Position numbers and translations under genes: made by a program. A stretch of 64,000 nt of DNA from Arcticibacter eurypsychrophilus (GTDB lineage Bacteria > Bacteroidota > Bacteroidia > Sphingobacteriales > Sphingobacteriaceae), in assembly GCF_001730525.1 (NCBI RefSeq), contig NZ_MDFN01000003.1:62001-126000 (forward strand), read 5' to 3'. The notes under the pieces were generated by a model. That model saw nothing but the letters and a program-made list of their open reading frames with translations, made no database searches and was not told the DNA's origin. This document shows, in pieces, positions 30,201 to 55,630 of this stretch (position 1 is the stretch's first letter; each line of letters starts with the position of its first letter).

Positions 30201-33200
30201 CATTGCTTACGGTCAACATTGCTTCATCGTTATCTGCAATATTGGCAGTTTTCGCTGAGGGGTCTACTGTAATTCCATACGGAAGTCCGGCAGGATTCAT
30301 GGCCAGAATAACTGTTTCTGTACCTTCTAAAACCTGGTCGTCAAGAACAGCCAGATCTAGCTTTACACTTTTAGTATTGGCTGGAAGTGTAATGATGCCA
30401 GCAGCAGGACTGGCTGTATAATCATAATCAGATCCGGTACTTAATGCTGTGCCAATAAGTCCGTAACTAATTGTAACCGGTACATCAGCGGTTTTTTCAG
30501 GATCGCTGAATCCAAATGTGAAACTTGCATCAGATCCTCCTTCAGATCCATCTTTAGAAATCACTACAATTGTTCCTGAATCATCGTTATCAATTTTAAC
30601 CGTTCTTCCTGTTTCCGAAATGGTTAAGCGGTTATTGAAATTCGCACTCAATCCGCTAAGTAATACATTGAATGCCTCGTCCCTTTCAATCTTTTTATCC
30701 CCATTGATTAATAGATGGATCGGCCAACTTTCCCCTGCTTTACCGGTAAAGGGAAGGATTCCCGAATTGGAAACATAATCATTATCACCCGCCTGTGCGG
30801 TACCATCCGCAGTAGCATATTGAATATTAAAACTACTTTTCGTGCCTTTATCCAGCACGACTTCAAAATCAGCACTCACAGTTCCATTGTCACCCTCCCT
30901 TAATGTAACAGGACCACTTAGGGTCAAATTTGCTTCATCATTATCGGCAATCGTTATCACAGGTATTGAAGGATTCAGGGTAATAAAACTGCTTCCTGTT
31001 ACTATGTTAGTGATTGTTATCGTTTCGTTATCTTCTACTAACTCATCATCATACACATCCAGGACCAGCGCAGCACTTTCTGTATTGGCAGGAATAGTAA
31101 TCAAGCCTCCGGAAAAAGAGGGTACATAGTCATGATCCGGACCTGTTTCTGTTGCCGTGCCACCTAATGTATAAGTAATATTAGTCGTTTTGTCCGATGT
31201 TACTCCTGATGGAAAACTAAATACAAAACTTCCATCAGGACCACCTTCCACACCATTGGTTTTAATGATCGTAATTTCGCCTGAATCGTCATCCGTAATA
31301 TTAGAACTTATTGCCGCTAATCCTACCGCCATTAGCGGAGATATGCCGTTTGCTGCTTCAGTTAAAGTAAGTTTCACCGTTTCCATACTTTCAATGATCC
31401 GGTCATCAAGCACCACTACAGGAATCTCAGCTGATCCGCTGTTGGCAGGAATAATCGCCTCTCCGCTTAAAGTAGTATAATCTACTCCTTGTAATGCCGT
31501 TCCCCCGCTAACCTTATAGCGTACCGTAGTAGCTACTGCACTGGTATAATCTTCCGGAAAACTGACCTTATATACAACCGGAGTATCAGGTTCTGAGCCA
31601 TCAGCTACTTTGCTTAATGTAATAACTGTATTGGCGGCAAGGTTATCGTCATCACTGATTTCTGCACTAACAGCTTCAGGCTGTGTGATTAAATCGGGAG
31701 CTATGCTATTATTCGCATCGAATAAAACTATTTCTATCGTTTCTGTCGGTTCAATGATCCTATCATTAAGTAACGAAATATCAATCAGAGCCGAGTTTGC
31801 GTTAGCCTCAATCAGCACTACACCTGTCGGTACTGTGTAATCAATTTCAGGAGTAGCACTAACCGCAGTGCTCAGCACTTTATATTTTACAGTAGTAGGT
31901 TTAGAACTGCTGTAGCCAGGCGGAAAGCTCAGTTCAAACTGTGGATTTATTCCTCCTTCTACACCGTTTTTTATACATTTTAAAAAGATGTATTTGTTAG
32001 CAGTGACATTATCATCGTCAATAATATCCGCAATTACAGCAGCTGTTTTAGGCTCTATTGCAAATGTGGAAATAGAATTGCTTGCACTTGTTAACCTAAG
32101 CTCCACGGTTTCAGTAGGCTCAATGATCTGATCATTTACCACTTTTACATTAATAATAGCCCCATTACTATTAGCAGGAATACTAATTAAACCGTTTAAA
32201 GCCGTATAATCAATTCCTGCTACAGCTGTTCCACCAATCACATAGTTTACTGTGGTTGCTACAGAACTGGTATAACCATCCGGAAAACTGATCTGAAACT
32301 GTGCATCCACGCCCGTCTCGGATCCATTAGCTATTTTCCTTAAGGTAATCGTATTATTGATTAAGTTATTATCATCATCTGCAATGTCCGCGCTCAACCC
32401 TGCGGAGGGTGACCATGTTAGTACAGAAACACCATTGTTAGCTGCGGTTAAAGTCAACTTAACGTTTTCTGTAGGCTCAATAATCCGGTCATCAATTACC
32501 CCTATCTCAATATCGGCCGAAGTGGTATTTGCCGGAATGATCACCGTGCCGCTTAATGCAGTGTAGTCTGTTCCTGCTAATGCTGTTCCTCTTGTTGTAT
32601 AATTTATTGTCGTCTCTTTTGAACTGCTGAAACCAATTGGGTACTTTACTGTAAAACGGGCATTTGTTCCCGGTTCCCCACCATCTGTTTTACTTAGCGT
32701 GATGCTGTTATTTGCCGGAATATCGTCATCTTCATCTTCAATATAAGCACTTACAGCTGTAACAGGAAACATGGAAAGTTTCGATATAATACTATTATCG
32801 GCCGTCTTTAATGTTAAAGCTATAGTCTCTCTACCTTCAATAATTCGGTCATCAAGCACATTTACATCAATCGGTACGAAATTGGTGTATGCTGGAATGA
32901 TGACAATACCGCTCAAAGCAGTATAGTCCAGAAATGGAGTAGCAGTCCCACCTATTGTATAATTTATCGTAGTAGCTTTTGAACAAGTATATCCATCAGG
33001 AAACCCAACCGTAAACCCAGCTGGAGTACCTGGTTCTGAGCCGTCTTTCGTCCACTTAAGTATAATCCTGTTATTGGCTTCGGCATTATCATCATCACTG
33101 AGGTTAACCCGCTGCATCGTAGGATCCACTACAGGGTTAAAACTCATATTGTCTGCGGCTGTTAAAGCCAGATTAACCGTTTCAGTAGCTTCAATGATCT

Positions 33201-36200
33201 TATCATCAATTACAGCAATATCAACTAATCTGGAGTTCGTGTTTGCAGAAATCGTTGCTATACCTGTTAATGCCTCGTAATCAGATCCAGCAGCCGCAGT
33301 ACCTCCAATGGTATACGTTACCTTAGTGTCTTCCGAACTACTGATACCGACAGGGTAACTCAAAAGAAGCTGTCCATTTTCACCTGGTTCCTTTCCATCG
33401 GCAATCCAGCTTACAGTGATTTTATTGTTGCCTGCTGTATTGTCATCATCCGTAATAGTAGCGCTCACCTCAATACTGGGCGACACTGTCAATATAGGAG
33501 CGGAAACAGTATTGGTTGCTGAACTGAGTTTCAGTTTTACACTTTCAAGATTTTCAATGATCTTGTCGTCAATGACCTGAATGTCGATATACGCATAATT
33601 TGCTCCCGCTGGAATGGTCAACTCTCCACTTAATGTTTTATAGTCCGCCCCCTCTAATGCCGTTCCCCCTGTGTTATTATACAACACCTTTGTATCTACT
33701 GATGTGGTAACTCCAGAAGGAAAGCTTACTTTAAACTGAGCATTGCTTCCAGGTTCTGATCCGTCATTTTCATTAACTAGTGTGACGATCGTGTTAATGG
33801 CGATATTGTCATCATCATCAATAGTGGCACTTACCAGTCCGGGGCCTACTGTCAGCGTAGATATTGTATTTGTCGCGCTAGTTAATGTCATACCCGCAAC
33901 CTCTTGAGGTTCAATCACCTTATCATTAATTACATTTAAAGTAATAAATGCGGAATTCTGATTCTCAGGGATGACCACTGTACCTGTTAAAGGAATGTAA
34001 TCCAGTCCGTTTGCCGCAGTACCACTCATCGTATAATGAATTTCGGTAGGTACTGAAGCAGTTTTTGAAGAGGGAAAGCTGACTTTAAACTGTGGGTCAT
34101 TCCCACCCTCTCCACCATCTCTTACATTGCTTAATGTAATCAGGTTATTGGCCGCGGTATTATCATTATCCAAAATAGCAAGAGAATGCGGAGAATTACC
34201 TGCTGCCATGGCTGCATAACTTAAGCTTTTCACCGAAGTGATGGTCATGGTCACCGTTTCGGGACCTTCTATAATGAAGTCATCTACAATATTTAGCTTA
34301 ACCTGAACATAATTGGAATCGGCAGGAATAATGATCGTTCCTTGTTGCGGATCTGTATAATCCCTTCCCCCTCCAATGGCGGTTCCAGTAAATGTATATG
34401 ATATAGTCGTGGGCTGATCTGAAGTCACTTCCGGAGGGAAACTTAAAGTGAAAATCCCTGGTGTTCCGTCTTCACTACCATCAGTTTTCGAGATGCTGAT
34501 CAATTTTTTATCCGGAACATTGTCATCATCTATAATGGTCATTGTAACCGGCGGACTAACATGCAGATTACCTCCGAAGTCATTGTCAAGTTCATATAAG
34601 GTTGCAATAAATGTTTCATTAGCTTCAATCTTCAAGTCGCCAATAATGGGTATAGAAATGTACTTTACCTCTCCTTTATTTCCTGAAAAACTCAGAGTAT
34701 CTATTTTTGCTTCGTAATCTTCATCTTTTGTTGCTGTACCATCATTTGTCTTAAACTTTATTGAAAAAAGCCCGCTGGTTTGTATGTCCAGCGTTACACT
34801 AAACGTGACATAAGTGATTCCGCTGTCACCCTCAGTAATTGTCGGCGGACTACTAAGTAATATGGTATTGTCGTTATCTATAATATTAAGTGTGTATTCT
34901 GAAGTACTACTTTGCGTAAAGTTAGTGTAAACCGGATTTGTACTCGTTATAGTATTAACGGTTATAACCACTGTTTCATTCCCCTCCAGGATGAAATCAT
35001 CAACTAAAGGGAGTTCAAGAGTAGCATTATTATCTCCTGCCCGTATAACAATCGTCCCAGAAATTGGTCCTGTGTAATCAACACCCTCCCCTGTAGCTGT
35101 GCCTGCCAGTGTATAAGAGATCTCAGTATCCGAATCAGCAGTTATCCCCGTAGGAAAACTGAATATAAAGGTGGCATTAGGACCTTCCTTTTCATAGCCA
35201 TTGGTCTTACTGATCGTAATTGTTTTATTAGCCGCTGTATTATCGTCATCTTCAATAATTCCTGTTGCAGGAGAATTATTTACTGTTAAGTGCCCGTCGA
35301 ATGTTTTAGAAGGAGTCATCATGTTTAAAGTCAAGGTTTCATTGGCTTCAATTTTTTGATCTCCTTTTACTTTTATTCTAACCTGCTGAGTTTCTGCCAC
35401 ACCTCTAAAAGTCAGGGTATTGCTTTGTGCGATATAATCTTCACCTGCCAGGGCAGTACTATCTGCTGTGTTAAATCCTATGGTAAAACTACTGCCAGTA
35501 GGTTTGTCAAGCTTTACATCAAAGATAAGATCCACCGTCCCGTTATTACCTTCAACGGCTCTGGCATTACTCATGATGATGTTGGCAAAATCATTGTCTA
35601 TGATATTCAGTGCCTGTGGCGAATTAGCTACCTGGATCGTTTGAAAACCGCTGTTAGTCACCGATCCTGCATTTACGATCACCAATTCAGCCTCTTCTAA
35701 AATTGTATCATCCAACACATCAAGGCTTACCGTTCCGCTATTCTCGCCTGCCATTATAGTAACAGATGTACGAGTTGCCCCGGTATAGTCAGCTGCACTG
35801 GCATCTCCGCCCAACCCAAAGTTAATCGTAGTTGGCTGGTCGGCACTTACCCCTACAGGGAAACTAAAAGTAAAAACACCTGGTACCTGGCCCTGTTCCG
35901 CACCATCGGTTGTTGTGATGGTTATCTTTTTGTTGTTTGGTGTATTATCGTTATCCTGAATGGTTCCTGTTCCGCTGGGAGAATATGTTAAATGCCCGTC
36001 AAAAGTATCGGTCAAACCACTTAATAAAACAGAAAACGCTTCATTTTTTTCTATTTTCTGATCACCGTTCACCAGAATTACAATCTTCTGAACCTCCCCA
36101 GCTGTACCCGCAAAGGGGATCGCACCTGATTGTGCAACATAATCCTCTCCTGCTAAAGCTGTTGTACCATCGCTGGTAATAAAATTCAGATTAAAACCAC

Positions 36201-39075
36201 TGCCTGTAGGTTTATCAAGGCTAACATTAAAGGTAAGCTCTTGAGTTCCGCTATCTCCTTCTAAAATTATTGGACTGCTGATTGTTAGAGTAGATTTATC
36301 ATCATCTGTAATAGTTACTTCAGGTATGGGGGTATCCGGTACAATTATTCCATAGCCATAGTTATTCACTATCTGACCAATAGTAATTGTTACAGTTTCA
36401 GTTCCTTCAGTCAGGCCATCATTAATTATGGCAAGATCTAGCGTAATACTATTCTGTCCCGCCAGAATGGTAATGCTGCTGTTTTGCGATGGTGTATAAT
36501 CAATTCCATTGCCAATGGCAGTACCGCTCCCGGTTCCAAGCGTAAACGGAATAACCAGATCTTCGTCAAAAGTCATTCCTTCAGGCAAGCTAAATGTAAA
36601 ACTTCCATCCCGAACTCCTTCCGATCCATCTATCCCCGAGATCGCAATTGTGGTAATGAAATCATCGTTCCGAATAGTTCCTGTAGCTGTAGCTTTATCA
36701 ACAGGTATTTGCCCGCCAATTGGTTTTGAAAGTACAACATTGAATACTTCATTGCCCTCAACCATTTTATCCTGTATAACCGGGACCGTAATAGTTCTAC
36801 TTATCTCTCCTGGCGCAAATATTAATGTACCGGTTTTAACAAGTGTTGATGCAAAGTCTTTGTCTAAAACAGGATCATTTACAATCGTATAATCAACTGA
36901 AACAGAACAATTTGAATTAGCTTCTGACAAGGATACTTTAAAGATCATGTCCTGATTACTTCCAACAGCACTTCCTTCATCTACAGAAGCATTAGCAATA
37001 GAAATATTGCTGGAAACTATAGTGGCAGAATGCGGTTTAATGTTATTACATACGGAAGTACCTGAATTACATTCTTCTTCCGGATTGGTAGGCGGCAACT
37101 TATCACTATTAGTAGCATCCGGATCATTGACATCTGCAGGACGTAATATACTTGCGATTACATTTAAATTGCCTACAGCTGGCTTTTTATTCACAACAGC
37201 CGTTATTTTAACAGTAAGGATCGACTGATTGACCATATTGACCAGAGCTGTAGCACTAGAGGCAGTTTGGGACTCTGCCGACACAGAAACTCCGGGAGAG
37301 GGTGGATAATTTACTGATTGTACAGTTAATTCAGGCGGGAAGTTGAACGCTACTTTAGCCCCGGTTACATCTGCCGGTCCGCCATTTTTATATTCAATGG
37401 TGTAAGTAATGGTTTCCCCTAAGCAATAGGTAGGCGTTAGTTTATCTGATTTCAAACTAAGCACCTGCAGATCTGCTTCCTGAAGCTTTATAGAATTACC
37501 AGAAGATATCGTATTACTTAAAAGGTATGCCCATGTGTCAAGTCCTGCATTATTTCCGAAATTATTATAATTATAGCTAGTTGAACCCCATTTGTGTCCA
37601 TTATTTAAACTGTACCGCCCTTCTAGCTGAACGATGGGAGACGATTCATTACCATTTCTACTAATGTTTGTATCGTTCCAATAAACTATAGAACTGGTAT
37701 CTTGAGTTCGCGTAATAGAAATGCCACCTGGATTATTCTCCACGTCTATAAGAGGAAAGTGCACTTCCCCTGCTTTTAAAGATACTTTTATTGACGATGC
37801 ATTAATTGTTCCATTGGGCACTTTATTACCGGAACCATCCTTCCCATTCCAGAAAACCAAATTAGTGTCCCCTTTTGCATATCCCGTTAAAGTAACATCT
37901 CCTGCATCTGTCCCGTTATTATCAATATCAATATTAACAGTATAAGTTCCTCCCTGGTTCGACTTAAAACCTATAAACCCACCTAAAGGAAGTGTTCCAG
38001 CTACATTGGCTGTTCCTTCTAGACCTATGAATTTAAAATCCCTTATTTCGGGTAACATAGGTACCGTCTTTAGCCAGGTTGTACCGCTTGTTCCCGGATC
38101 TGTGGGATTCCCATTATTGGACCTTATCGGAGCATCAGAAGGAAGATCTGATGCAGGAATATTAAAGAATAGCTTATGGGTAATATCTACTGTAGAAAAA
38201 TCATCCATCATGCGCGGGTCATGTAGATTTCCAATTTCGGTAGAATTTTCACTTTGATAACGGGCAGTACCATCCGTATTTCTATATCCTTTATTGTTTG
38301 AAAAAAAAGTGAAACCATGTCCCGCCATGCCATTTGCTTGCACTTTATAAGTATACCCATCATTGGTTAATACCTGAAATATTCCATTGAATGTACCATA
38401 GAATTCCCAAAGTTTTCCTGAAAACACATTCATATAGGCTCTTCCTTTAATAAAATTGCTGCTTACTGAAGCATTGGCTAGAGCAGAGACAGAAACATCA
38501 AAAGCGGCAACACCCCCGGAATTATCGCCTTGATTGCCTGCACCAGGATTCTTAGTAACCGGCCAGTTGCTACTTGAAGCAACCGGAATATTAGGGTTAG
38601 CTATACTACTTGTTGAACCAATAAAAAAAACCGACCACACTCCTCCTTCTTCAGCTTTATGTGTAAATGGGATATAGCCACCTGAACCAGGTAGAGGACC
38701 ATTTATTTCCTGATTGCGATTTGCTATAAAACCAGTATTATCAGGGGAATCTGTTGTAATAGAATAAACACCACTGGGGGAAATAAGAACAATCTTTCCC
38801 CCATATACACCCTTAGCACTTGACCCAAGATATATAGTTTCATCTTTATTTACATATACCCGTACTAAACCCTGAGTCCAAAAGAAAGAACCATTCAAAT
38901 CTGATAGATAAGCCCTGTCTCCTCCATTTGCATTCAATTCCTTACTCCCTTCCGCGAAAACAGCATTTGAAGACAGGATAAAAATAAAAAAAAACAAGAT
39001 ATAGCTATATAAAAGCCTGGAAGCGAATGATCTTTTAAAGAATATAATGTCAGATTTAAAAGGAGTCGTGGACAT
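27217..39075 (-). CDS. Giant Calx-beta repeat adhesin with type IX (type B) sorting domain
   Basis: This 3952-residue surface protein has a signal peptide near residues 1-42. Next come a region without a recognised domain (about 45-540), a DUF11-type repeat (about 545-640, with CLGETITYTIEYKNGGPADV), and 24 tandem Calx-beta-like domains (about 690-3534). Two cadherin/VCBS-like domains follow (about 3535-3735, with NDADVDGT and NDSDPDGDQ), one more Calx-beta-like domain, and the gliding-motility/type B C-terminal domain (about 3855-3952: SPNGDGIGN, then IIFNRWGNAVY, ending GYVIIKR). Calx-beta domains bind Ca2+ through acidic loops, here the recurring DDD/DND at each domain border. Export by type IX secretion and surface adhesion are inferred from the C-terminus and the linked PorP/SprF gene. 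The frame is intact over nearly 12 kb. Confidence 0.93.
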   Translation of the reverse strand: MSTTPFKSDIIFFKRSFASRLLYSYILFFFIFILSSNAVFAEGSKELNANGGDRAYLSDLNGSFFWTQGLVRVYVNKDETIYLGSSAKGVYGGKIVLISPSGVYSITTDSPDNTGFIANRNQEINGPLPGSGGYIPFTHKAEEGGVWSVFFIGSTSSIANPNIPVASSSNWPVTKNPGAGNQGDNSGGVAAFDVSVSALANASVSSNFIKGRAYMNVFSGKLWEFYGTFNGIFQVLTNDGYTYKVQANGMAGHGFTFFSNNKGYRNTDGTARYQSENSTEIGNLHDPRMMDDFSTVDITHKLFFNIPASDLPSDAPIRSNNGNPTDPGTSGTTWLKTVPMLPEIRDFKFIGLEGTANVAGTLPLGGFIGFKSNQGGTYTVNIDIDNNGTDAGDVTLTGYAKGDTNLVFWNGKDGSGNKVPNGTINASSIKVSLKAGEVHFPLIDVENNPGGISITRTQDTSSIVYWNDTNISRNGNESSPIVQLEGRYSLNNGHKWGSTSYNYNNFGNNAGLDTWAYLLSNTISSGNSIKLQEADLQVLSLKSDKLTPTYCLGETITYTIEYKNGGPADVTGAKVAFNFPPELTVQSVNYPPSPGVSVSAESQTASSATALVNMVNQSILTVKITAVVNKKPAVGNLNVIASILRPADVNDPDATNSDKLPPTNPEEECNSGTSVCNNIKPHSATIVSSNISIANASVDEGSAVGSNQDMIFKVSLSEANSNCSVSVDYTIVNDPVLDKDFASTLVKTGTLIFAPGEISRTITVPVIQDKMVEGNEVFNVVLSKPIGGQIPVDKATATGTIRNDDFITTIAISGIDGSEGVRDGSFTFSLPEGMTFDEDLVIPFTLGTGSGTAIGNGIDYTPSQNSSITILAGQNSITLDLAIINDGLTEGTETVTITIGQIVNNYGYGIIVPDTPIPEVTITDDDKSTLTISSPIILEGDSGTQELTFNVSLDKPTGSGFNLNFITSDGTTALAGEDYVAQSGAIPFAGTAGEVQKIVILVNGDQKIEKNEAFSVLLSGLTDTFDGHLTYSPSGTGTIQDNDNTPNNKKITITTTDGAEQGQVPGVFTFSFPVGVSADQPTTINFGLGGDASAADYTGATRTSVTIMAGENSGTVSLDVLDDTILEEAELVIVNAGSVTNSGFQTIQVANSPQALNIIDNDFANIIMSNARAVEGNNGTVDLIFDVKLDKPTGSSFTIGFNTADSTALAGEDYIAQSNTLTFRGVAETQQVRIKVKGDQKIEANETLTLNMMTPSKTFDGHLTVNNSPATGIIEDDDNTAANKTITISKTNGYEKEGPNATFIFSFPTGITADSDTEISYTLAGTATGEGVDYTGPISGTIVIRAGDNNATLELPLVDDFILEGNETVVITVNTITSTNPVYTNFTQSSTSEYTLNIIDNDNTILLSSPPTITEGDSGITYVTFSVTLDIQTSGLFSIKFKTNDGTATKDEDYEAKIDTLSFSGNKGEVKYISIPIIGDLKIEANETFIATLYELDNDFGGNLHVSPPVTMTIIDDDNVPDKKLISISKTDGSEDGTPGIFTLSFPPEVTSDQPTTISYTFTGTAIGGGRDYTDPQQGTIIIPADSNYVQVKLNIVDDFIIEGPETVTMTITSVKSLSYAAMAAGNSPHSLAILDNDNTAANNLITLSNVRDGGEGGNDPQFKVSFPSSKTASVPTEIHYTMSGTAANGLDYIPLTGTVVIPENQNSAFITLNVINDKVIEPQEVAGMTLTSATNTISTLTVGPGLVSATIDDDDNIAINTIVTLVNENDGSEPGSNAQFKVSFPSGVTTSVDTKVLYNNTGGTALEGADYKTLSGELTIPAGANYAYIDIQVIDDKIIENLESVKLKLSSATNTVSAPILTVSPSIEVSATITDDDNTAGNNKITVSWIADGKEPGENGQLLLSYPVGISSSEDTKVTYTIGGTAAAGSDYEALTGIATISANTNSRLVDIAVIDDKIIEATETVNLALTAADNMSFNPVVDPTMQRVNLSDDDNAEANNRIILKWTKDGSEPGTPAGFTVGFPDGYTCSKATTINYTIGGTATPFLDYTALSGIVIIPAYTNFVPIDVNVLDDRIIEGRETIALTLKTADNSIISKLSMFPVTAVSAYIEDEDDDIPANNSITLSKTDGGEPGTNARFTVKYPIGFSSSKETTINYTTRGTALAGTDYTALSGTVIIPANTTSADIEIGVIDDRIIEPTENVKLTLTAANNGVSVLTWSPSAGLSADIADDDNNLINNTITLRKIANGSETGVDAQFQISFPDGYTSSVATTVNYVIGGTAVAGIDYTALNGLISIPANSNGAIINVKVVNDQIIEPTETVELRLTSASNSISTFAIEPKTAAVIADIIDDDNVTANKYIFLKCIKNGVEGGINPQFELSFPPGYSSSKPTTVKYKVLSTAVSATPEIDYTVPTGVVLIEANANSALIDISLLNDRIIEPTETIEIVLFDANNSIAPDLITQPEAVSAEISDDDNLAANTVITLSKVADGSEPDTPVVYKVSFPEDYTSAVATTVRYKVSGGTALQGVDYTTLSGEAIIPANSGSAEIPVVVLDDRIIESMETVKLTLTEAANGISPLMAVGLAAISSNITDDDSGEITIIKTNGVEGGPDGSFVFSFPSGVTSDKTTNITYTLGGTATETGPDHDYVPSFSGGLITIPANTESAALVLDVYDDELVEDNETITITNIVTGSSFITLNPSIPVITIADNDEANLTLSGPVTLREGDNGTVSADFEVVLDKGTKSSFNIQYATADGTAQAGDNDYVSNSGILPFTGKAGESWPIHLLINGDKKIERDEAFNVLLSGLSANFNNRLTISETGRTVKIDNDDSGTIVVISKDGSEGGSDASFTFGFSDPEKTADVPVTISYGLIGTALSTGSDYDYTASPAAGIITLPANTKSVKLDLAVLDDQVLEGTETVILAMNPAGLPYGITVDPSAKTANIADNDEAMLTVSNGQVIEGDSGMQTMIFTVKLDKATAKPFTLSYATFEGTAIEDDDYVGRTDTLSFKGTANETQTISIQVKGDQKIEKDETFTVTPGTLSENFNGLLRISSSAAVGTIIDNDNTTIMLSKVLDGDEPLTNARFKVSYINSGVTSTEPIDVLYTIKGTAGNGVDYTALSGNAIIPAGASEAFIDVEVTDDMLVEPIETVTLTLTGASSVNFTLPVQALPVTATISDNDRVVLTVSNPTIKEGNSGTTIVAFNVILSTDTPGGFQVKYNTTDGTATVAGNDYSPVSGTLNFKGMAGETQSINVFVKGDQMIERNETFNMLLELSDTFDGRLTVSESPAIGTILDDDDIPANKIITFTTTDGAEGAYDGSITLSFPSGVTTDSPTTIQFISGGTALGNQDYIVLYLSPAIIPAGITSTSVQIPVMDDAIIEGTETLQIISGVVNNERYTGITVQTPEPVMHIFDNDYGVLTVSSPAVKEGDNGGTLMIFEVKLSTATGTGFTVDYTTEDGTATLDNRDYNFVNGTLVFNGTAGETKTISVWVSGDLSLEDNETFRLVLSGLSEIPGAALKISEWPGVGLILNDDIPPVAVDDLKTTEEDVPITFSVTSNDADVDGTLDPQSLVVITGPVQGTLLLNPDGTFTYTPKADYNGKDSFTYKIRDNNGMESNEAKVILIITSVNDAPVAQDDLFYVLKNGSLKATVKRNDSDPDGDQLNFNVMTSPEKGKLSSFNLVDGSFTYIPDNDFAGIDHFSYKACDAPGLCATAEVTIYVQPKVTVNLTPSADTINEGEITRVTAEITEPLFQDIEIILSYSGSAEQDQDYVLEGDFLRMVIPAGKTSTTKQLVIKSAKDFLKEGDEVVQVRAQDANPSQFVMIGTGSDILIKDFYPEDQEINSNANGDINPDPLASPNGDGIGNENFVIHNIDRYPENEVIIFNRWGNAVYRMKGYNNRDRAFAGVANTGLLVNSNTNLVDGVYFYIIHTKDSMGILKVNKGYVIIKR
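28475..37010 (-). repeat. 24 tandem Calx-beta coding repeats, about 356 bp each
   Basis: About 118-120 codons repeat 24 times. Two kinds of unit can be told apart. Type A has an EGDSGT-like opening, LDKPTG, DGTA..EDY and GDQKIE.NE. Type B has a DGSEPG-like opening, a TTI.YT..GTA motif, a DYT.LSG..IPA motif and a DD.IIE..ETV motif. A and B alternate at both ends, while units 8-17 are all B, suggesting amplification in the middle. The units are diverged, not recent copies. Confidence 0.85.
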
Positions 39076-47455: not shown

Positions 47456-47785
47456 TTATCTTTTCTTAATGTAGATATGCTTGATGTTGTTCTTACCTGT
47501 GTCGCGCTCATCGATCTCAAACTTGTTCATACTTTTAATCAATGGTAACATCTTTGTATAACCATAATTCCTAGGATCAAAATCAGGCTTTTTCTTTAAT
47601 AGCAAATTGCCCAGTTCACCGAGGAATGTCCAGCCATTTTCATCTGCAAGGTCTGTAATGCTATCCCCAAATAACTTAATAATCTTAGGATCTATCTTAC
47701 TTAGTGGATTATTTGAAGAGGCTGTGGTTTTTTTAGAAAGTTTCTTAGTATCATCCTCATCATGACTTGTGCTGTCTGATTTCAA
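47456..47785 (-). CDS. OST-HTH/LOTUS domain portion of a frame-broken NYN protein
   Basis: This 109-residue frame encodes a polar linker and then an OST-HTH (LOTUS) domain: KIIKLFGDSITDLADENGW, LGELGNLLLKKKPDFDPRNYGY and a basic end. Such domains normally follow a NYN RNase domain in one polypeptide and bind RNA. The only start codon in reach is TTG (47785), overlapping the TGA of the upstream frame (TTGA). Either it is made by coupled re-initiation or frameshifting, or the gene is broken. Removing two bases from the AT tract at 47793-47803 restores one 253-residue protein. Confidence 0.65.
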   Translation of the reverse strand: MKSDSTSHDEDDTKKLSKKTTASSNNPLSKIDPKIIKLFGDSITDLADENGWTFLGELGNLLLKKKPDFDPRNYGYTKMLPLIKSMNKFEIDERDTGKNNIKHIYIKKR

Positions 47786-48219
47786 TATTTCAATATATAT
47801 ATAAATTTATCACAAGCCGATATAAAAGGGATTAGCGTTTTCTTCTCTCCTATTCCGATGACTTTCATTCCTGCTTCGCGAAGTCGTGTAGCTAATCTGG
47901 TAAAATCACTATCACTGGATACGATACAGAATCCGTCGACTTTTCCAGTGTATAATATGTCCATGGCATCTATAATCAGTGCACTATCTGTTGCATTCTT
48001 TCCTACGGAATAGCTATACTGCTGAATGGGTGTGATGGCATTTTCCAAAAGGACATTTTTCCAACCGGAAACAGTAGGTTTTGTCCAATCGGCATATATT
48101 CTCTTGAAAGTTGGGGTTCCGTATTTAGCAATTTCTTCAAACATCTCCTTCACATTTGCGTAAGGCACATTATCGGCATCAATTAATACAGCAAGCTTGA
48201 GGTCTTTCTTCGTTTCCAT
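47782..48219 (-). CDS. NYN domain (LabA/PIN-like RNase) protein
   Basis: This 145-residue NYN (PIN-like) domain has the acidic residues expected for a metal-dependent RNase: Asp14, Asp16 and Asn17 (LIDADN), Asp78 (NATDSALIIDAMD), and Asp103/Asp105 (VSSDSDFTRL). NYN proteins of the LabA/Limkain type cleave or bind RNA. The end ACDKFIYILKY departs from the family pattern just at an AT repeat, after which the OST-HTH part runs in another frame. It lies 36 bases after the RhuM gene in the same direction. Confidence 0.85.
   Translation of the reverse strand: METKKDLKLAVLIDADNVPYANVKEMFEEIAKYGTPTFKRIYADWTKPTVSGWKNVLLENAITPIQQYSYSVGKNATDSALIIDAMDILYTGKVDGFCIVSSDSDFTRLATRLREAGMKVIGIGEKKTLIPFISACDKFIYILKY
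47793..47803. repeat. Short (AT)n tract at the NYN/OST-HTH frame break
   Basis: Eleven alternating A/T bases (ATATATATATA) occur exactly where the reading frame of the NYN gene diverges from its OST-HTH half. One dinucleotide fewer gives a continuous frame reading FIYIEILKSD. Confidence 0.7.
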
Positions 48220-48255: not shown

Positions 48256-49272
48256 CTAATTTAATGCTTGGATCGCCTTATCAAAATCACTAATAAAAAG
48301 CCTGTCCTGTTTAATTCTGAATATTTCATATTCACTTTCAGCTTTGGCTTTAGCTGTGGCTGCTTCTACTGCATCGAAGCTTAATATGTCTGAATTAACT
48401 AAAATTTCATAATCATTGATTTGCAAAAACACTTCCAGTTTTTTAACCCAATCTGTCATCTTCATCGGTATTTGCTGTATAGCCTGATTTTCTGCGTAAT
48501 CCAGATATAAATTTACTGCACTTTCAAAATCTTTCATCTCTTTTTCATCAAGATAATTATCGGCTACGTTAACATCAGATTTTAACACTTTACCTTCAGG
48601 AGAGTTTTTCCAGGATTGCAAACCCATATTAGGATCCTCTGCCTTTGCTCTTTCCTTAATTAACTCCGGAGCAGTTTTACCTGTAATTACACTATGTAAC
48701 GTATTCTGAACGGTATTAAAAAAGTTTTTTGTCACCACAGAACTGGAATCATAATCGATACTGCACTGCTCATAAAGGTCGGTTAGTTTCAAATAAAATC
48801 TTCTTTCACTAGCCCTTATTTCCTGAATCCGCTCTTGTAATTCTTTAAAATAATCGTGACCAAAAGGTTCACCTTGTTTTAGACGGTCCGCATTTAGTAC
48901 AAAGCCTTTTGCTATATATTGTCTAAGAGTTTGTGTCGCCCAGATCCGAAACTGTGTGGCATGATAGCTGGTTACACGATAGCCTACAGCGATTACAGCA
49001 TCAAGGTTATAGAAACTTGTGTTATATGATTTTCCGTCATTATCGATATGCGATACATTCAAACATGCTGAAGCTAAAATAAGCTCCTTCTCTTTAAAAA
49101 TGCTTTCGAGGTGTTTGGAAATAACGGACCTGTGTACTCTAAATAAATCGGCCAGTTTCTTCTGACTCATCCAAAAGGATCCATCCTGAAACATGACTTC
49201 AACTTTTACATGACCATCACTAGAGGTATAGATTATAATATCGGAATTTTGAGGTGCTGTATTTTCAGTCAT
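48256..49272 (-). CDS. RhuM family (virulence/Fic-associated) DNA-binding-like protein
   Basis: This 338-residue protein has the RhuM family pattern: an N-terminal HTH-like part with VMFQDGSFWMSQKKLADLF and HRSVISKHLESIF, then YNLDAVIAVGYRVTS, FRIWATQTLRQYI and QERIQEIRASERRFYLKLTDLY. The C-terminal half is helical with EYEIFRIKQDRL. The biochemical role of RhuM is not known. The family is common in genomic islands and often neighbours defence or toxin genes. It follows the Toprim subunit gene after 79 bases and has its own -7 element. The N-terminal half resembles the Bro-N/KilA-like type of DNA-binding protein. Confidence 0.88.
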   Translation of the reverse strand: MTENTAPQNSDIIIYTSSDGHVKVEVMFQDGSFWMSQKKLADLFRVHRSVISKHLESIFKEKELILASACLNVSHIDNDGKSYNTSFYNLDAVIAVGYRVTSYHATQFRIWATQTLRQYIAKGFVLNADRLKQGEPFGHDYFKELQERIQEIRASERRFYLKLTDLYEQCSIDYDSSSVVTKNFFNTVQNTLHSVITGKTAPELIKERAKAEDPNMGLQSWKNSPEGKVLKSDVNVADNYLDEKEMKDFESAVNLYLDYAENQAIQQIPMKMTDWVKKLEVFLQINDYEILVNSDILSFDAVEAATAKAKAESEYEIFRIKQDRLFISDFDKAIQALN

Positions 49273-49351: not shown

Positions 49352-50209
49352 TTACCGCTCTATGAAGGCTTCCTGCTCCAAGCCTTTCTTGTATTGGTGC
49401 ATCCATTTTAATAGTTTCAGAATACCCTCTTCTTGCACTTCTTTTGCTTCAAAGTTCATCTTTTGATTATCGTATAACCCTCTTTTCCCATACTTAGAAA
49501 GCATGGTTTCAATAGTATCAGGGACAAGAAAGCGTGCTTTCGATCCCAGATATCGTTTATATTCATTTAAGTATATTCCTATCCCAGCAAAATCAAAATC
49601 ACCAAAGTGCAGGTAATTATTAGGAATAGTTTGAAGCCATTTGATTAAATCTTTACTTTGGTTCTGTGGGTAACGGCTAACAAAAAGGGGATGTACGCCT
49701 TTAAAAAGATGTCGCTGTCTATCAATCTGACTAAAGCTTTCTGAGTTCTCTATCCCCACAATAGTTACATCAGGATGAGGTATAAACTGTTCAAATTCAT
49801 GAATAAATTGAAAAGTTCCTGATGGCGGCTGTACAAGGAAGGATATACCATTCAATGTCGTTGATACAGGTTCATAGCTATTTACTAAAAAACCTTTAAA
49901 CGTTCTGACATTACTAATTTTAGAATTTGATGCGACCTGAACCAAGAGAGAGCGGGAAAGGTTTTCTGTATTTAATGTTTCTACATATCGATTCAGATCG
50001 GCAATGGAAAACCGGTTAAGTAAAAACGCCTGCAGAGATTTTGAGCTCTGAAGAGACATTACACTTTTGGTTCTCCCTGATCTGATATCTACAAGAATAC
50101 CATCCTCCAAAAGCTCAGAAATGAGTGGATATTTCAATTGACTTGCAGGCACCCTTTCGCCACTGCTTAATTGCAATAATTTAATGGCTAAAGACTTACT
50201 CAGCTTCAT
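49352..50209 (-). CDS. jetD: JetD/MksG-like Toprim nuclease subunit of an SMC defence system
   Basis: This 285-residue protein has an N-terminal winged-helix-like part (LSSGERVPASQLKYPLISELL) and a C-terminal Toprim-type domain, with the acidic residues Glu154 (IVGIENSESF) and Asp204/Asp206 (HFGDFDFAGIGIY), ending KKGLEQEAFIE as in JetD proteins. In Wadjet systems this subunit cleaves plasmid DNA loaded by the SMC complex. The gene overlaps the SMC gene by 14 bases. It is rather short for JetD; the N-terminal domain of longer members seems reduced. Confidence 0.83.
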   Translation of the reverse strand: MKLSKSLAIKLLQLSSGERVPASQLKYPLISELLEDGILVDIRSGRTKSVMSLQSSKSLQAFLLNRFSIADLNRYVETLNTENLSRSLLVQVASNSKISNVRTFKGFLVNSYEPVSTTLNGISFLVQPPSGTFQFIHEFEQFIPHPDVTIVGIENSESFSQIDRQRHLFKGVHPLFVSRYPQNQSKDLIKWLQTIPNNYLHFGDFDFAGIGIYLNEYKRYLGSKARFLVPDTIETMLSKYGKRGLYDNQKMNFEAKEVQEEGILKLLKWMHQYKKGLEQEAFIER

Positions 50210-53200
50210 TACCTGGATTATTTTGAATCAGCTTTTTCACAGTGGTTACATTCTTATTATCTTTTAACAGCAGGTAGGTATAACGGTAATCTATTGCATT
50301 ATAAGAGATTGGCGAGCTATTTATCAGTAAGATATTTCTATCATTCGCAAATTTCAAGATCCCCTTTACGTTAGTAGGATGCAATTTTCCAATTTCATCC
50401 ATCATACAATGCAGACGAAAATCTTTAAATCGTTTTGAAGCACTTTCTTTAAATACATTCAAAAGCATGATATTGATCATTGCTTTAACCAATATATCGG
50501 TGCCTTCAGACCCTACATTAGCCAGCTTTTCAACCCAGCCACTATCATTCTCATTCTCGACTATACGAAACTGCAACTCGAAGGTATCTGAAAGGTTTAT
50601 TTCATGTTGCTTGGAGCTGGTAATCTCTTCGGCAAAGCTTTCAAGAAGTCCTACTGCTTTTTTATTAGTCACTTCTGAATCATCGGTGCTGAATAAGTCA
50701 GCAATACCAAGACTTAAATCATGAACAGCATTGAAGGTGCGTATTTCTTGTAAAAGCATGACCGTTTTATTGGCACTGGGAGAAAGGCGTAGATTGATAC
50801 TTTTAATAACACCTGCAAAATTACGCTTCTCAAAATCTGTGTTAATATCAGTGATTACTTTTTGTATAATCGCCTCTTTGGATATCAGCTCTGTGGTTTC
50901 TTTGCCTACCTGACGAATCAAACTGGCAAAATGTTCATTAGTCCGTTTCTCAAATTCTTTTATTTTATTCTCCTCCAAAAACTCTTTCAGGTTTTCTGCA
51001 AAATTCAGATAATCTTCATTTTCTACCAGGTTTGTTTTAAAACCAAAGACGTTTGTAGTGGAAAAATTACTTAAAAACTTACTGACCTCCGAATGAATTT
51101 CTGTCATTCGATTAATGAGCGTATAACTTTTGTCTCTAAACTCCTCCATGATTAGGGTGAGTCTTTTTGGCGACTTAATCGTTTCTTTCCCTACTAACTG
51201 GTCTGTATGTTGGTTTAAAAACAGGTCTGTTTGGATAAAACGACTAAATTCATTAAGATCCTCTTCCATCTCCCGATGAGTAAGCATCAAATCTTGTATT
51301 AAAGAAATCTGCTTATCAACGGTTTCCTGAAGTTTCGTTTTTGTTAGTTCATGTTTTTGCAATTCGGCTACAAATCGTGTTTCATTGAGCTTTTTGTCCG
51401 CTTTGAAGGTATCAACCAAATCAAAAAACTCTCTCTTATCTTTATTATAATCGGATACATGGTCTCGGTTATCATCAATGAAGATCAGCTCTGCCTGTAT
51501 GTTCTGAAGATCTTTTTCAATAGAAGAAAGTCGAATAATATCGGCTCCCTCATCTTTTAACTCTTTATTATTTTGAGTTTTAATATCCTGGATACGTAAA
51601 TTGATTTCTTCTGTTTTGGCGCTAATATCCTGATCCAGTTTACTAAAACTAATTTGCAGTTTATCTTGCTCCGTAATAACCTTATTTTTCTTTTCTTTCC
51701 TTTTGGTATCGATCTGTGTTCTAATGCTTTTCTCCAGATGTTCTAGATTTTCTTTAGCAGATAGTCTTTCCTCTTCCATCTGATCAATATCTTTTTTGAT
51801 CAGCAATAAAGCTGTATCCTTTGCTTTCTGTCCATTTGTCCGCAAGTCTTCCAATTTTACCGAAGCTTGATCTTTTTCGCCTAGCGCCTTTTCTGCTTCA
51901 TATTCTTTAACTAAAATGCCTTCTTTATATTCACGTATTAAGGATTGATATTTCTTTCTTGTTTTCTCCAGATCTTGTACATTCTTTGCACTTAACTGTT
52001 CGGTTTCATCTTCTGACTTTTTAATTTTATCATGTAGTTGTTCCCTTTCTGCGGTGTAATCAGCTATCGTTTTTACTGTCCTTGATATTTCCCGCAGATC
52101 GAGATCAACCCCAAATAACAAGTCATTGCCCTCACCTACAAGTTTAGGAGTTAAACCAGTGTGGAACAACACCTGCTCCTGATCAATAACTTTACCAATA
52201 TTGCTTTCCCAACCCGGCTTATTCTGATGGAGCCATGAATACAAAGAGTTCGTACTGTTGGCCAATATTTTATCAATATCCTGAATTTTTATTTTCGAAA
52301 AATTAATCAGCTCATGAAGCTTTGTAAGTTGATTGTTATGATTGGCCTCCAATTTGGAATTTTCGAGATCCCATTGTTTCTGTACGGTTTCGATATTCTT
52401 TTTACTCCCTGCTATTTCAACTCCTGCTTGATGGATGATTCCTTTACTCTCATTTATTTTAGTTTGAGCTTCGGCTATTTCTTCTTCAAAGTAGCGCTTC
52501 AATTCTATTTCCTTTTTCCGTACTAACAAGGAATGGATGTACTCTACTTTCTGAGCAATATCTTCCAGTGCACTTTTAGCGACTTCCTTGTTCTCCCGCT
52601 CAATATCCCCATTGATCTGTTCATACTGGGCGTTTAGATTTTCATTGAATTTATAAAATGATCCCTGAAGCAGATTGCGCTCTTTATTTTTTGAATTAAT
52701 AAAGTCATGCAGTTGATTATTGAACTGATTAATTAATGCTTCGTATTTTGTTGTAATCTCTTTAAAACGAGCAGAAAGGAGTTCTTGTTCGTCTTGTAAA
52801 TTAGTCCTTCTCTGATTCCAATAAGCTTTTTTACTTACTCTTTCTATGATGCCTGCAATATTTAAGCCTTCATAATACTCAGATTTTACTTTGGCATCTT
52901 TTAGCCTGGCATCTAACAAGGTGATTGCTGAAGAGATCTTGTCCTTTCTTCCTTGAAATTTCTCATCAGCTTCTGCTACTCTTTTGTTTGCTGCGATTAG
53001 TTTATCACGTTCCGTATGGAGATGCCTGACTACTGTAGGGAACATTTTTTTTACTTGCTGATGTGCAGCAACCAATGTCATTGCTAAATGCGCCTTTTCT
53101 TTTTCAAGATAACAGATATCGGTGTAAAGTTTAGCGATGTTATCTGCTAACAGACGTACAATTACTACACCTCCGCGATTCCTGGTACTCCATTTACTGA

Positions 53201-53873
53201 TATCAGCAAGCTGTACCTCAAAATCACGAAGATGAAAGGTATACTGATCCAGATTAATCTTCACATCCTCCTCATTGAGGGACATGATGATCGTTTGCTT
53301 AATAAATTCAGCTTCCAGTTTAGAATTGAGGAATACGTTTTGAATGGTACGCGGAAGATTCTGATACTGGCGACTTTCTATCAAAGCAAACTTCCTGAAT
53401 TCAGCCGGTAAACCTTTATTATTTCCATATAAAATATCACGGTATTCTTCGTAATATTCAATTTTCCTTGAATAATGACCATGACCAGGAAATGTATTCC
53501 TGACCTGTTCCCATGACATCGACTTATTCTCCGGACTAATGAAGTTAGAGCGATCATAGGCTCCGTCTATAAATCGAAATGCAGTCCTTCCTTGAGATTT
53601 AAAGGCAAGCACACAGAAAGAACCGGTTTCCCTAACCACTTCATAAATGATATACGAATTGGGAAAAGGAAAATAATATTCATCAAAAGAACGCTTTCCT
53701 TTCTCTATTCCAAGTTTCAGTTTATCAGCGTTATAAAAGAATAGAATTGCCCGAAGCATGGTACTTTTACCTACTCCCTGTGTACCGATGAAATGTACAT
53801 TACCGTCGATAGTGATGTCGGCATAACTAATATTCGCACTATTTATGAAAATTATCTTATTCAGGTATCTCAT
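50196..53873 (-). CDS. jetC: MukB/MksB/JetC-like SMC ATPase
   Basis: This 1225-residue SMC-type ATPase has the Walker A motif GTQGVGKST at residues 30-38, a very long coiled coil (about 240-1000) broken in the middle by a hinge-like segment, and the second half-site near the C-terminus. The signature position reads VGSEGTDIL (near 1120-1128) in place of the usual LSGGE/Q, and Walker B is CMMDEIG with Asp1159 and Glu1160. Together these define a complete SMC head. With the kleisin and small winged-helix subunit upstream it would form a condensin-like, DNA-extruding complex. It overlaps both neighbours by 17 and 14 bases. Confidence 0.88.
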   Translation of the reverse strand: MRYLNKIIFINSANISYADITIDGNVHFIGTQGVGKSTMLRAILFFYNADKLKLGIEKGKRSFDEYYFPFPNSYIIYEVVRETGSFCVLAFKSQGRTAFRFIDGAYDRSNFISPENKSMSWEQVRNTFPGHGHYSRKIEYYEEYRDILYGNNKGLPAEFRKFALIESRQYQNLPRTIQNVFLNSKLEAEFIKQTIIMSLNEEDVKINLDQYTFHLRDFEVQLADISKWSTRNRGGVVIVRLLADNIAKLYTDICYLEKEKAHLAMTLVAAHQQVKKMFPTVVRHLHTERDKLIAANKRVAEADEKFQGRKDKISSAITLLDARLKDAKVKSEYYEGLNIAGIIERVSKKAYWNQRRTNLQDEQELLSARFKEITTKYEALINQFNNQLHDFINSKNKERNLLQGSFYKFNENLNAQYEQINGDIERENKEVAKSALEDIAQKVEYIHSLLVRKKEIELKRYFEEEIAEAQTKINESKGIIHQAGVEIAGSKKNIETVQKQWDLENSKLEANHNNQLTKLHELINFSKIKIQDIDKILANSTNSLYSWLHQNKPGWESNIGKVIDQEQVLFHTGLTPKLVGEGNDLLFGVDLDLREISRTVKTIADYTAEREQLHDKIKKSEDETEQLSAKNVQDLEKTRKKYQSLIREYKEGILVKEYEAEKALGEKDQASVKLEDLRTNGQKAKDTALLLIKKDIDQMEEERLSAKENLEHLEKSIRTQIDTKRKEKKNKVITEQDKLQISFSKLDQDISAKTEEINLRIQDIKTQNNKELKDEGADIIRLSSIEKDLQNIQAELIFIDDNRDHVSDYNKDKREFFDLVDTFKADKKLNETRFVAELQKHELTKTKLQETVDKQISLIQDLMLTHREMEEDLNEFSRFIQTDLFLNQHTDQLVGKETIKSPKRLTLIMEEFRDKSYTLINRMTEIHSEVSKFLSNFSTTNVFGFKTNLVENEDYLNFAENLKEFLEENKIKEFEKRTNEHFASLIRQVGKETTELISKEAIIQKVITDINTDFEKRNFAGVIKSINLRLSPSANKTVMLLQEIRTFNAVHDLSLGIADLFSTDDSEVTNKKAVGLLESFAEEITSSKQHEINLSDTFELQFRIVENENDSGWVEKLANVGSEGTDILVKAMINIMLLNVFKESASKRFKDFRLHCMMDEIGKLHPTNVKGILKFANDRNILLINSSPISYNAIDYRYTYLLLKDNKNVTTVKKLIQNNPGNEAE

Positions 53874-54426
53874 TCTTAATATCTTCAGGAATATTTATAG
53901 TTAATATCAGCTGCTCCAGATAAGAAAATGATGCCAGGGTTTTGTATTCTTGCACAATCTCATTTTCTATTTCTATAAAATTATCTTTTTCAAGGTAATC
54001 TAGTATCTTTTCAAGAATCTCTGCATGCTTTTCCTTACCACCTGCATACTTTTTTAAGTCTTCGAGCTTATTCTTCAAATCGGCATCAACTGACAGCCTA
54101 ACCAGAATATCTGATGGTTTAAAACGGAATCCAGAACTAAAACCGACTTCAAATGTTTTCAAAAAGTCGATGATGTCTATCCACTTCAATGCGGAATCAA
54201 GTTTACGCTCAATGTCTGCTTTGGTGTCCTTCCGCGTAAAATAATAGTACTCATCTCCTTCTTCCATAATGAGATTGATACCCGAAAAATAGGTATAGAA
54301 AGCATCGAAATCCTGATTAATAACACTATATAATTTACGAATATTATCCTTACTACTATTGGAACATATAAATTGCCCCTTATTCAGAATTTCAAATACA
54401 TCAGATGACTGTTTAGGTATTTCCAT
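53857..54426 (-). CDS. jetB: MukE/MksE/JetB-like winged-helix subunit (DUF4194-like)
   Basis: This 189-residue acidic protein fits the small tandem winged-helix subunit: DEYYYFTRKDTKADIERKLD follows the pattern of DUF4194-type proteins, then helical segments WIDIIDFLKTF and a C-terminal winged helix. Its place between the kleisin gene and the SMC gene, with one base to the former and a 17-base overlap with the latter, is the standard order. Sequence similarity alone is modest; the call leans on context. Confidence 0.75.
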   Translation of the reverse strand: MEIPKQSSDVFEILNKGQFICSNSSKDNIRKLYSVINQDFDAFYTYFSGINLIMEEGDEYYYFTRKDTKADIERKLDSALKWIDIIDFLKTFEVGFSSGFRFKPSDILVRLSVDADLKNKLEDLKKYAGGKEKHAEILEKILDYLEKDNFIEIENEIVQEYKTLASFSYLEQLILTINIPEDIKNEIPE

Positions 54427-54427
54427 A

Positions 54428-55630
54428 TTAATACAGCGGATAAATTAACATATATTCAGTATCCTGCTTTAATGAATACTGATCTGTCAGATTAAAAAGC
54501 ACATCATATTGTGAAATCAGCTGGCAGTAAACAGTGATACATTCTTCAAATGGAACCTCTCTTCCGAAATCATACGTTTGAAGGAAATCAAACAAATTAT
54601 TACTTCCTGCCAGAAAGCTACTTTTCACTTCTTCCAAATTGACTTGTACAACCACAAGGGTATCCGATTTCAAATACTCTTCCAAGCTGTTCTCTGCCAG
54701 GTTTTGAACGATACGATTACCTGTTTGATTGCGACTGACAACCTTCCTGATAATATCGAGCACTTTGCTGTCATTTTGCAATTGCTCTATAGAAAGTTTT
54801 ATTGTATAAGATGGATTAGGTTCATATACCAATGCATTATCGGCTTGTAAAACCTGAACAATATTGGTTTTACTTTTAATTTCAAATTGGTCCTTCAGGT
54901 ATTTCAATTGCCTGATTTTCTCCATTAACCCACTTTGATATTTAAGGCGGTTAATAAACTCGATAATCTGCTTTTGGATATCAATCAGATTATGTCTACA
55001 TTCATTAAGCTGAAGTTTTAACCTGATGATTATTTTATGTAACTCCTCATCAGAGGCTGTTTTAAAAAAAGTCTGTTCTTCCTCTCCTGAAATCAGGTTA
55101 TCTGTTAAAGTAATCAGAACCGAAATATCATTACGTTTAACATCAAGATGTTCAAGTTTAGCTTTTTTGATTTTATAGTTAGGTTCGTTTTTAAATGTAT
55201 TATCGATATTCCTTTTTAAATCAACTACATTACGTAAAGCAATCAGTCCTATTTTACGTAATGCACTTTTGATCAGCCGTAAATAACTATATTTCCTAAT
55301 TTCGCTATTTTCTTTCAGGTAATAATTTATGTTTTGCTGAATACTTTGGAGATTTTCATTGATGTAGGAAACATTGATTTCCTCATTGACTTCCAGAATT
55401 TGTTCAAAGAATTGAAGATACTGATCGTCAAGCTCCAGAAAGCCACCGTTTTCTCTCAATACACCATAGTCAATAAGAGCCAGGATCTTATCTTCGTTAT
55501 AATCCACCACTTCCAAAGCATACTCATATTTGTAGGAAAGCATTTTCCGCTTTTCAAAGATTTCGGTAAGCAGTTTTTGCTCGCGACTAAGTATAACTAG
55601 TAATTCTTTGATTGAAAAGAATGTTCTCAT
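54428..55630 (-). CDS. jetA: MukF/MksF/JetA-like kleisin subunit
   Basis: This 400-residue, mostly helical protein is the first gene of the SMC operon. The N-terminal part (about 25-75) looks like a winged helix (EVVDYNEDKILALIDYGVL), the middle is a long helical/coiled region (about 85-260) and the C-terminus ends in a compact domain. MukF/JetA kleisins bridge the SMC heads and bind the small subunit. The identification rests on size, helix pattern and operon position. A -7 element lies about 50 bases upstream. Confidence 0.72.
   Translation of the reverse strand: MRTFFSIKELLVILSREQKLLTEIFEKRKMLSYKYEYALEVVDYNEDKILALIDYGVLRENGGFLELDDQYLQFFEQILEVNEEINVSYINENLQSIQQNINYYLKENSEIRKYSYLRLIKSALRKIGLIALRNVVDLKRNIDNTFKNEPNYKIKKAKLEHLDVKRNDISVLITLTDNLISGEEEQTFFKTASDEELHKIIIRLKLQLNECRHNLIDIQKQIIEFINRLKYQSGLMEKIRQLKYLKDQFEIKSKTNIVQVLQADNALVYEPNPSYTIKLSIEQLQNDSKVLDIIRKVVSRNQTGNRIVQNLAENSLEEYLKSDTLVVVQVNLEEVKSSFLAGSNNLFDFLQTYDFGREVPFEECITVYCQLISQYDVLFNLTDQYSLKQDTEYMLIYPLY

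Follow-up and report, generated by a model that had tools for sequence, protein, structure and literature searches.

The locus considered here raises the question of what a bacterium with a canonical Smc and ScpA would do with a further operon coding for a kleisin-like protein, a small winged-helix subunit, a structural maintenance of chromosomes (SMC) ATPase and a Toprim protein. The operon occupies positions 49352-55630 of a 64,000-nucleotide stretch of Arcticibacter eurypsychrophilus DNA (contig NZ_MDFN01000003.1, positions 62,001 to 126,000), called the window below. An earlier note, made from the sequence alone, had read it as a four-gene set of Wadjet/MksBEFG architecture, and Pfam matches (genes B, C and D), predicted folds (A and D) and the operon order bear this out. 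The four genes quite probably code for an SMC nuclease of four subunits that acts against plasmids in the manner of Wadjet/MksBEFG. What is new is a Wadjet-like lineage, spread across Bacteroidota, that the defence catalogue tested, PADLOC v2, does not recognise.

A conserved four-gene operon

The operon is composed of the following genes (aa, amino acids):

54428-55630, minus strand: gene A, MukF/JetA-like kleisin (MksF) by predicted fold, 400 aa
53857-54426, minus strand: gene B, MksE/KITE winged-helix subunit by Pfam PF21980, 189 aa
50196-53873, minus strand: gene C, SMC ATPase of the DUF3584/MukB type (MksB) by Pfam PF12128, 1225 aa
49352-50209, minus strand: gene D, compact JetD/MksG-like putative nuclease by Pfam DUF7281 and predicted fold, 285 aa

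The order A-B-C-D and its junctions had been read correctly, the coordinates of the open reading frames (ORFs) giving a 1-base gap between A and B, a 17-base overlap between B and C and a 14-base overlap between C and D. All four genes, on one strand and in this order, are present in 81 of 92 family loci, nine of the 81 having one gene split or truncated at the end of a contig; the 92 loci were pooled from all sources and include repeats of closely related species. Junctions, where measurable, span at most 60 bases in 77/87 (A-B), 83/88 (B-C) and 76/79 (C-D) cases. The layout is not due to chance, because the order is kept in so many loci and the junctions are tight. Ratios of non-synonymous to synonymous substitution rates (dN/dS) against Arcticibacter svalbardensis are 0.055 for A, 0.089 for B, 0.082 for C and 0.120 for D, showing purifying selection on all four genes. 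The whole module is conserved across the family.

The operon products

The product of gene C matches Pfam PF12128 (DUF3584) over residues 19-1189 (E 6.2e-61, above the curated cut-off) and has the full SMC head motifs attributed to it from the sequence, with Walker A (GTQGVGKST) and Walker B (CMMDEIGK) intact. Comparison with JetABCD used alignments in which a true type I Wadjet operon of the host's family (locus L027), the only one typed by PADLOC, was combined with seven operons chosen for their matching layout (six in the case of D). The C-terminal head of C aligned weakly but in register with the JetC1-type alignment (hhalign, E 1.4e-3), and a PDB search with the C sequence alone gave no match. 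The tree of SMC heads that had been proposed as a check was built and puts the family on the MukB/JetC side, away from Smc and RecN (branch 95/94), supporting C as a MukB/JetC-type SMC. With heads grouped with neither Smc nor RecN, the system falls outside Smc-ScpAB and RecN-SbcC in a tree with one Smc, one RecN and no SbcC, the long branches of which raised a program warning. The family clusters with the SMC of a Pseudomonas plasmid (L014) and the compact SMC of L033 (99/96), separate from the JetC1-type branch, the L021 type and MukB. Two f32 genomes sit within the JetC1-type branch, the rows of which were picked by gene layout except for the PADLOC-typed L027.

The product of gene B is a clear MksE (PF21980, residues 5-174, E 3.3e-41, above the curated cut-off), a small subunit less diverged than had been supposed. 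Similarity to the JetB1-type alignment is weak but in register (hhalign, E 1.3e-4, probability 53%), DUF4194 misses its cut-off (E 0.062), and none of 13 B proteins matches any PADLOC Jet model (E<=0.01). PDB profile searches with B, C and D returned chance or coiled-coil matches only.

Gene D codes for a winged helix (residues 1-87) followed by a Toprim domain (103-285), in a model with a predicted local distance difference test score (pLDDT) of 90.5. It matches Pfam DUF7281 (E 4.1e-11, above the curated cut-off), and residues E154, D204, D206, Q279 and E280 are invariant in 72/72 aligned D proteins (a length-limited alignment from which L102 and L122 are omitted). Aligned to type I-like JetD (hhalign, E 9.6e-5), it has the ENxxxF, GDxDxxG and LEQE motifs in register. 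Foldseek places Topo VI-A (E 6.8e-5) and Spo11 (E 2.1e-4) on top, with neither MksG nor JetD among the 50 matches listed, and VIA-align ranks Corynebacterium glutamicum MksG (8b7f, Z 12.7), Topo VI-A (1d3y, 11.7), Spo11 (8urq, 10.6) and JetD (7til, 10.4) before further rows at about 6. In C. glutamicum MksG the acidic residues E236 and D279 are reported to be required for cleavage (PMC10123090). Fold and motifs support D as a JetD/MksG/Topo VI-A-type Toprim protein and a putative nuclease. It has the JetD combination of a winged-helix CAP, here a single short winged helix, and a Toprim domain with conserved acidic residues, and it is as short as had been noted (285 aa vs ~380-410 for JetD).

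Gene A has no convincing Pfam family and no NCBIfam or PADLOC family, and a PDB profile search did not identify it; none of 12 A proteins matches any PADLOC Jet model (E<=0.1). The kleisin is indeed strongly diverged, as had been suspected: it is invisible to sequence searches and only the fold search succeeded. The AlphaFold model, built from 72 homologues (length-limited; L069, L102 and L122 omitted), has a pLDDT of 78.9 and shows an N-terminal winged helix (1-80), a helical bundle (87-254) and, after a linker of poor model quality, a C-terminal winged helix (332-398). The top Foldseek match is Escherichia coli JetABCD (8q72_E, E 5e-4) at a poor TM-score of 0.15, followed by MukF entries, and VIA-align superposes MukF (1t98_A) over 217 residues at 3.6 A (Z 12.3), spanning winged helix and bundle. 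A is supported as a MukF/JetA-type kleisin by predicted fold, because the match covers both domains and because of the operon context, not because of the Z score itself.

Relation to known SMC systems

PADLOC v2 gave marginal matches in the window to JetC1 (4.8e-6) and JetD1 (2.1e-8) and none to JetA or JetB. JetC1 was matched by 9 of 11 C proteins (best 6.5e-7) and JetD1 by up to 10 of 12 D proteins (best 6.7e-10). The catalogue works on the host's lineage, since the type I operon L027 was called strongly (A 7.5e-212, B 8.9e-63, C 0, D 5.7e-151). Neither the 12 A nor the 13 B proteins matched the type I models JetA1 (DUF3375) and JetB1 (DUF4194). For types II and III, compared through models only, clear matches were lacking: JetC2 and JetC3 were matched by none of 11 C proteins (E<=1e-3), JetD3 by 6 of 12 D proteins (best 1.4e-4) and JetD2 by two of 12, the better (5.2e-5) being that of the Pseudomonas cousin L014. 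Searches of 395 Bacteroidota genomes with each of the JetC2 and JetD3 models yielded weak matches only and no type II/III reference.

The profile searches that had been called for (Pfam, PADLOC, hhalign) leave B, C and D weakly in register with Jet types and A with none. The window system is Wadjet/MksBEFG-like in architecture and is not type I as PADLOC models it. The suggestion of a perhaps unclassified subtype holds as far as type I is concerned; types II and III are set apart through models only. The literature, seen mostly as titles and abstract starts, names this lineage in none of them, and a prior mention is possible.

The operon has the kleisin, KITE, SMC and Toprim genes of the Wadjet functional class, the kleisin by predicted fold only. 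With type I Wadjet and C. glutamicum MksBEFG it shares this gene order, the acidic motifs and LEQE end of the Toprim protein and a MukB-like SMC. It differs from them in a kleisin of no detectable sequence kinship, in B and C being kin at profile level only, in a D about 100 aa shorter and in leaving the JetA1 and JetB1 models unmatched. The MksE, DUF3584-type SMC and kleisin are those of MksBEF(G); like the MksBEF condensin, the window system has this three-subunit core, but the family adds a Toprim D in most loci and has an accessory, patchy distribution. We know of no nuclease subunit in MukBEF. Gene A has the MukBEF kleisin fold of winged helix and helical bundle, while the SMC is of 1225 aa compared to 1486 aa (L139). 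MukBEF serves enterobacteria as their condensin (PMC10586767). The Pseudomonas sp. Leaf58 plasmid system L014, which clusters with the family in the head tree, has the DUF3584, MksE and DUF7281 Pfam families in common with it but differs in its order (SMC, MksE, third gene, Toprim) and in an identity of 18-20% to the window proteins; its third gene has no profile similarity to A.

Several further systems are related more loosely. L033 (10779-15954) is a compact system of, in order, an 887-aa SMC, a 263-aa DUF7281-like Toprim protein, a 398-aa familyless protein and MksE. Another operon type (L021, L022, L023, L024, L032) combines MksE with an SMC of 1053-1080 aa and ends in a gene of 305-317 aa; in its L021 copy PADLOC recognises nothing beyond a weak LmuB match. 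L015, on an Enterobacter IncC plasmid record, is a cousin operon of SMC and MksE that neighbours Tn7-like transposition genes; an IS256-family element has disrupted its SMC. The sole match in the phage collection is a distant SMC relative (21% identity) in Dolichospermum phage Dfl-JY45 (PP438435.1, 86940-89339).

Distribution and host background

The genome scan confirmed 317 relatives, of which 80 named loci were kept. By their titles these are nearly all Bacteroidota, the exceptions being Desulfuromusa and Fibrobacter bins. An initial search of the phylum with the SMC protein found the own genome only (1/296), a result of little weight as few candidates were scored in that first look. In the host's family MksE is present in 16 of 151 genomes, six with this operon and ten with other MksE operons; the host genus has the operon in three of six genomes, its own included, and Bacteroides, to which the B. 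fragilis locus belongs, has the SMC in 14 of 80. Among viral contigs one locus was found (L129). A Bacteroides finegoldii plasmid record (L167) went unused, its operon being cut by the record start.

The nearest relative with the operon is A. svalbardensis (NZ_AQPN01000019.1), with an SMC 91% identical. The next is Pontibacter, of the order Cytophagales (60%), and the SMC of the congener G001 (55%) is placed with Pedobacter and Sphingobacterium. L019, of the host's own family, and L079, from Shiella (Cytophagales), have SMC proteins 97% identical. The spread of the operon is patchy and horizontal, and the SMC tree departs from taxonomy; it is a quick tree of 89 proteins longer than 1150 aa (L014, L016 and L049 omitted) in which several long branches meet. 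The genes of the operon travel together: among ten mapped loci the window's adjacent genes recur only in A. svalbardensis (L018 shows one flank only). The idea that the operon is plasmid-borne was mostly set aside: the OY72xxxx records are called plasmids, yet L010, one of them, has chromosomal rpmA and gcvT.

The host carries a canonical Smc (1183-aa frame) and ScpA, so that the window complex is an addition and not the only condensin. ScpA was found in 11 of 36 carriers searched, out of 38 picked by hand from the 80 loci, and was missing in 25, compared to 248 of 296 genomes of the phylum sample (missing in 48). The 248 include no f20 genome, and the f20 genomes listed lack MksE as well; the absence of ScpA looks lineage-wide and not tied to the operon. 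This accords with two gut Bacteroidetes for which PMC10197239 reports no known condensin. That the operon replaces Smc-ScpAB was considered and dropped, because the lack of ScpA falls by family and the window's host has ScpA.

Proposed mode of action

Type I Wadjet is described as a dimer of dimers that completes loop extrusion on small circles, bends the DNA and has it cleaved by JetD (PMC10586767, PMC12287153). From the biochemistry of type I Wadjet and MksBEFG we infer the same dimer of dimers, extrusion, sensing of size and topology, cleavage and plasmid restriction for the window system. Two SMC dimers of C, each closed by the kleisin A and the KITE subunit B, would be joined via the kleisin N-termini. 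The A-B-C assembly would engage DNA and use ATP to extrude it as loops. Extrusion would be completed on a circle that is small and closed, and the stalled motors would present a bent DNA segment in which a D dimer, with the winged helix as a short CAP and E154, D204 and D206 in its Toprim domain, would make a double-strand cut. Neither linear DNA nor the large chromosome would be cut. An unrecognised system of this kind could bear on plasmid uptake and on the genetic tractability of Bacteroidota, and the 285-aa nuclease would be a small JetD for work on the mechanism.

The domain identities, the conserved and mobile module, its patchy, horizontal spread, a host that has Smc and ScpA besides, and the defence-type neighbours speak for this reading. 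A number of points weigh against it. The activity is carried over from other systems. D has little of the elongated N-terminal region of JetD, and with its short winged-helix CAP the control of cleavage, or autoinhibition, may differ from type I. The kleisin identity of A comes from a model with a predicted template modelling score (pTM) of 0.44, there is no sequence homology to the JetA1 type (E 0.11) or MukF detectable by hhalign, and a Z of about 12 is inside the noise range of helical bundles: most unrelated VIA-align rows cover the bundle alone, and CorA is among them at a Z equal to that of MukF. One of the operons with D is located on a plasmid of 157 kb; Persicobacter pPP6, with a relaxase nearby, looks like a genuine plasmid. 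The defence-type neighbours, among them model matches of flanking proteins elsewhere (Cas, reverse transcriptase, MkoA, AbiEi), were counted without a control. Finally, no D is found near 10 of the 88 scorable SMC genes, and some genomes may use A-B-C without D.

The best-surviving alternative is a mainly anti-phage SMC nuclease akin to Lamassu or OLD, in which C senses phage DNA structures or ends, D cuts phage or all DNA, and plasmid loss is secondary. The defence-type neighbours (RhuM/PDC-S05 and others) suit it, as do the weak LmuB matches of other SMCs with MksE partners (L021, L014, L033) and the use of Toprim nucleases by Gabija and OLD too (PMC13040014). It is nevertheless unlikely, since kleisin, KITE, DUF3584 SMC and JetD-like Toprim make up the JetABCD set and no Lmu model matches any of the four window proteins (E<=1), which places them outside Lamassu.

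Copies without gene D

The second alternative, a chromosome-organising condensin of MksBEF type whose Toprim partner is a topoisomerase or decatenase, not a restriction nuclease, draws on the loci that lack D. Rows of the SMC tree comprise 78 with D, ten without and one unscored, L069, the contig of which ends in C. The D-less rows are scattered over the tree and parsimony counts 10 changes, so that each absence is separate. Six of them keep A-B-C (L010, L013, L063, L092, L104, L119), and three of these lie beside metabolic genes: NAD synthase in L010, an isopropylmalate synthase-type gene in L013, and dihydroxy-acid dehydratase with a thiamine pyrophosphate enzyme in L119. Of the other four, L129 starts at a contig edge, A is missing too from L073 and, together with B, from L111, and in L077 A is inverted. 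A tblastn search with 84 D proteins found no D remnant in the ten loci and L069, and did find D in three control loci. Close pairs with and without D exist at SMC identities of 96% (L063/L065) and 89% (L104/L101). In L104 an OLD-type AAA-Toprim gene lies about 280 bases downstream of C and either belongs to an adjacent system or stands in for D; some losses may be decay.

The low share of carriers with ScpA also speaks for a condensin, but the host has both Smc and ScpA, and ScpA absence follows lineages. The patchy, horizontal distribution, seen within Bacteroides too, argues against a condensin, and type I JetD is without the Topo VI catalytic tyrosine (PMC10586767). This alternative is improbable. 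A narrower version, in which the D-less copies are a fixed housekeeping condensin of Bacteroides, was dropped in view of the few genomes of that genus with the SMC. An IF[ED]-like motif at the N-terminus of B, a possible counterpart of JetB IFDR, was rejected as a discriminator of loci with and without D, being similar in the rows listed for both. A decayed or inactive locus, which the broken SMC of the relative G007 and the split NYN gene next to the operon might suggest, is very improbable given four open genes under purifying selection with intact motifs.

A bolder proposal can be tentatively added, which we hold to be rather less probable than its opposite: the Bacteroidota lineage would form a Wadjet class in its own right, next to types I-III, with a distinct kleisin family and a minimal nuclease. 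The recurrent D-less copies would each have changed independently from an immune SMC nuclease to a condensin without nuclease or to a nuclease-swapped system. If true, this route from defence to condensin could be tested in close relatives.

Neighbouring genes

The operon is adjoined by the following gene:

48256-49272: RhuM-family gene (PADLOC PDC-S05 candidate, E 5e-129)

A RhuM gene and restriction-type genes are also found inside the L094 operon. In two close relatives, L094 (2009-10001) and L081 (1644-10001), about 8 kb of genes separate MksE from the SMC; the L094 insert codes for RhuM, REase-ARP nucleases, a weak AbiEii match, a tetratricopeptide repeat (TPR) protein and a metallophosphatase. 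At 47456-48219 of the window the NYN-domain and OST-HTH/LOTUS halves of one gene form two overlapping ORFs, whereas A. svalbardensis (L016) has a single ORF of 253 aa. A short TA repeat close to the junction is of unequal length in the two sequences, and the gene is possibly slippage-prone or phase-variable. Further away, positions 27217-39075 of the window are taken up by a single 3952-aa ORF.

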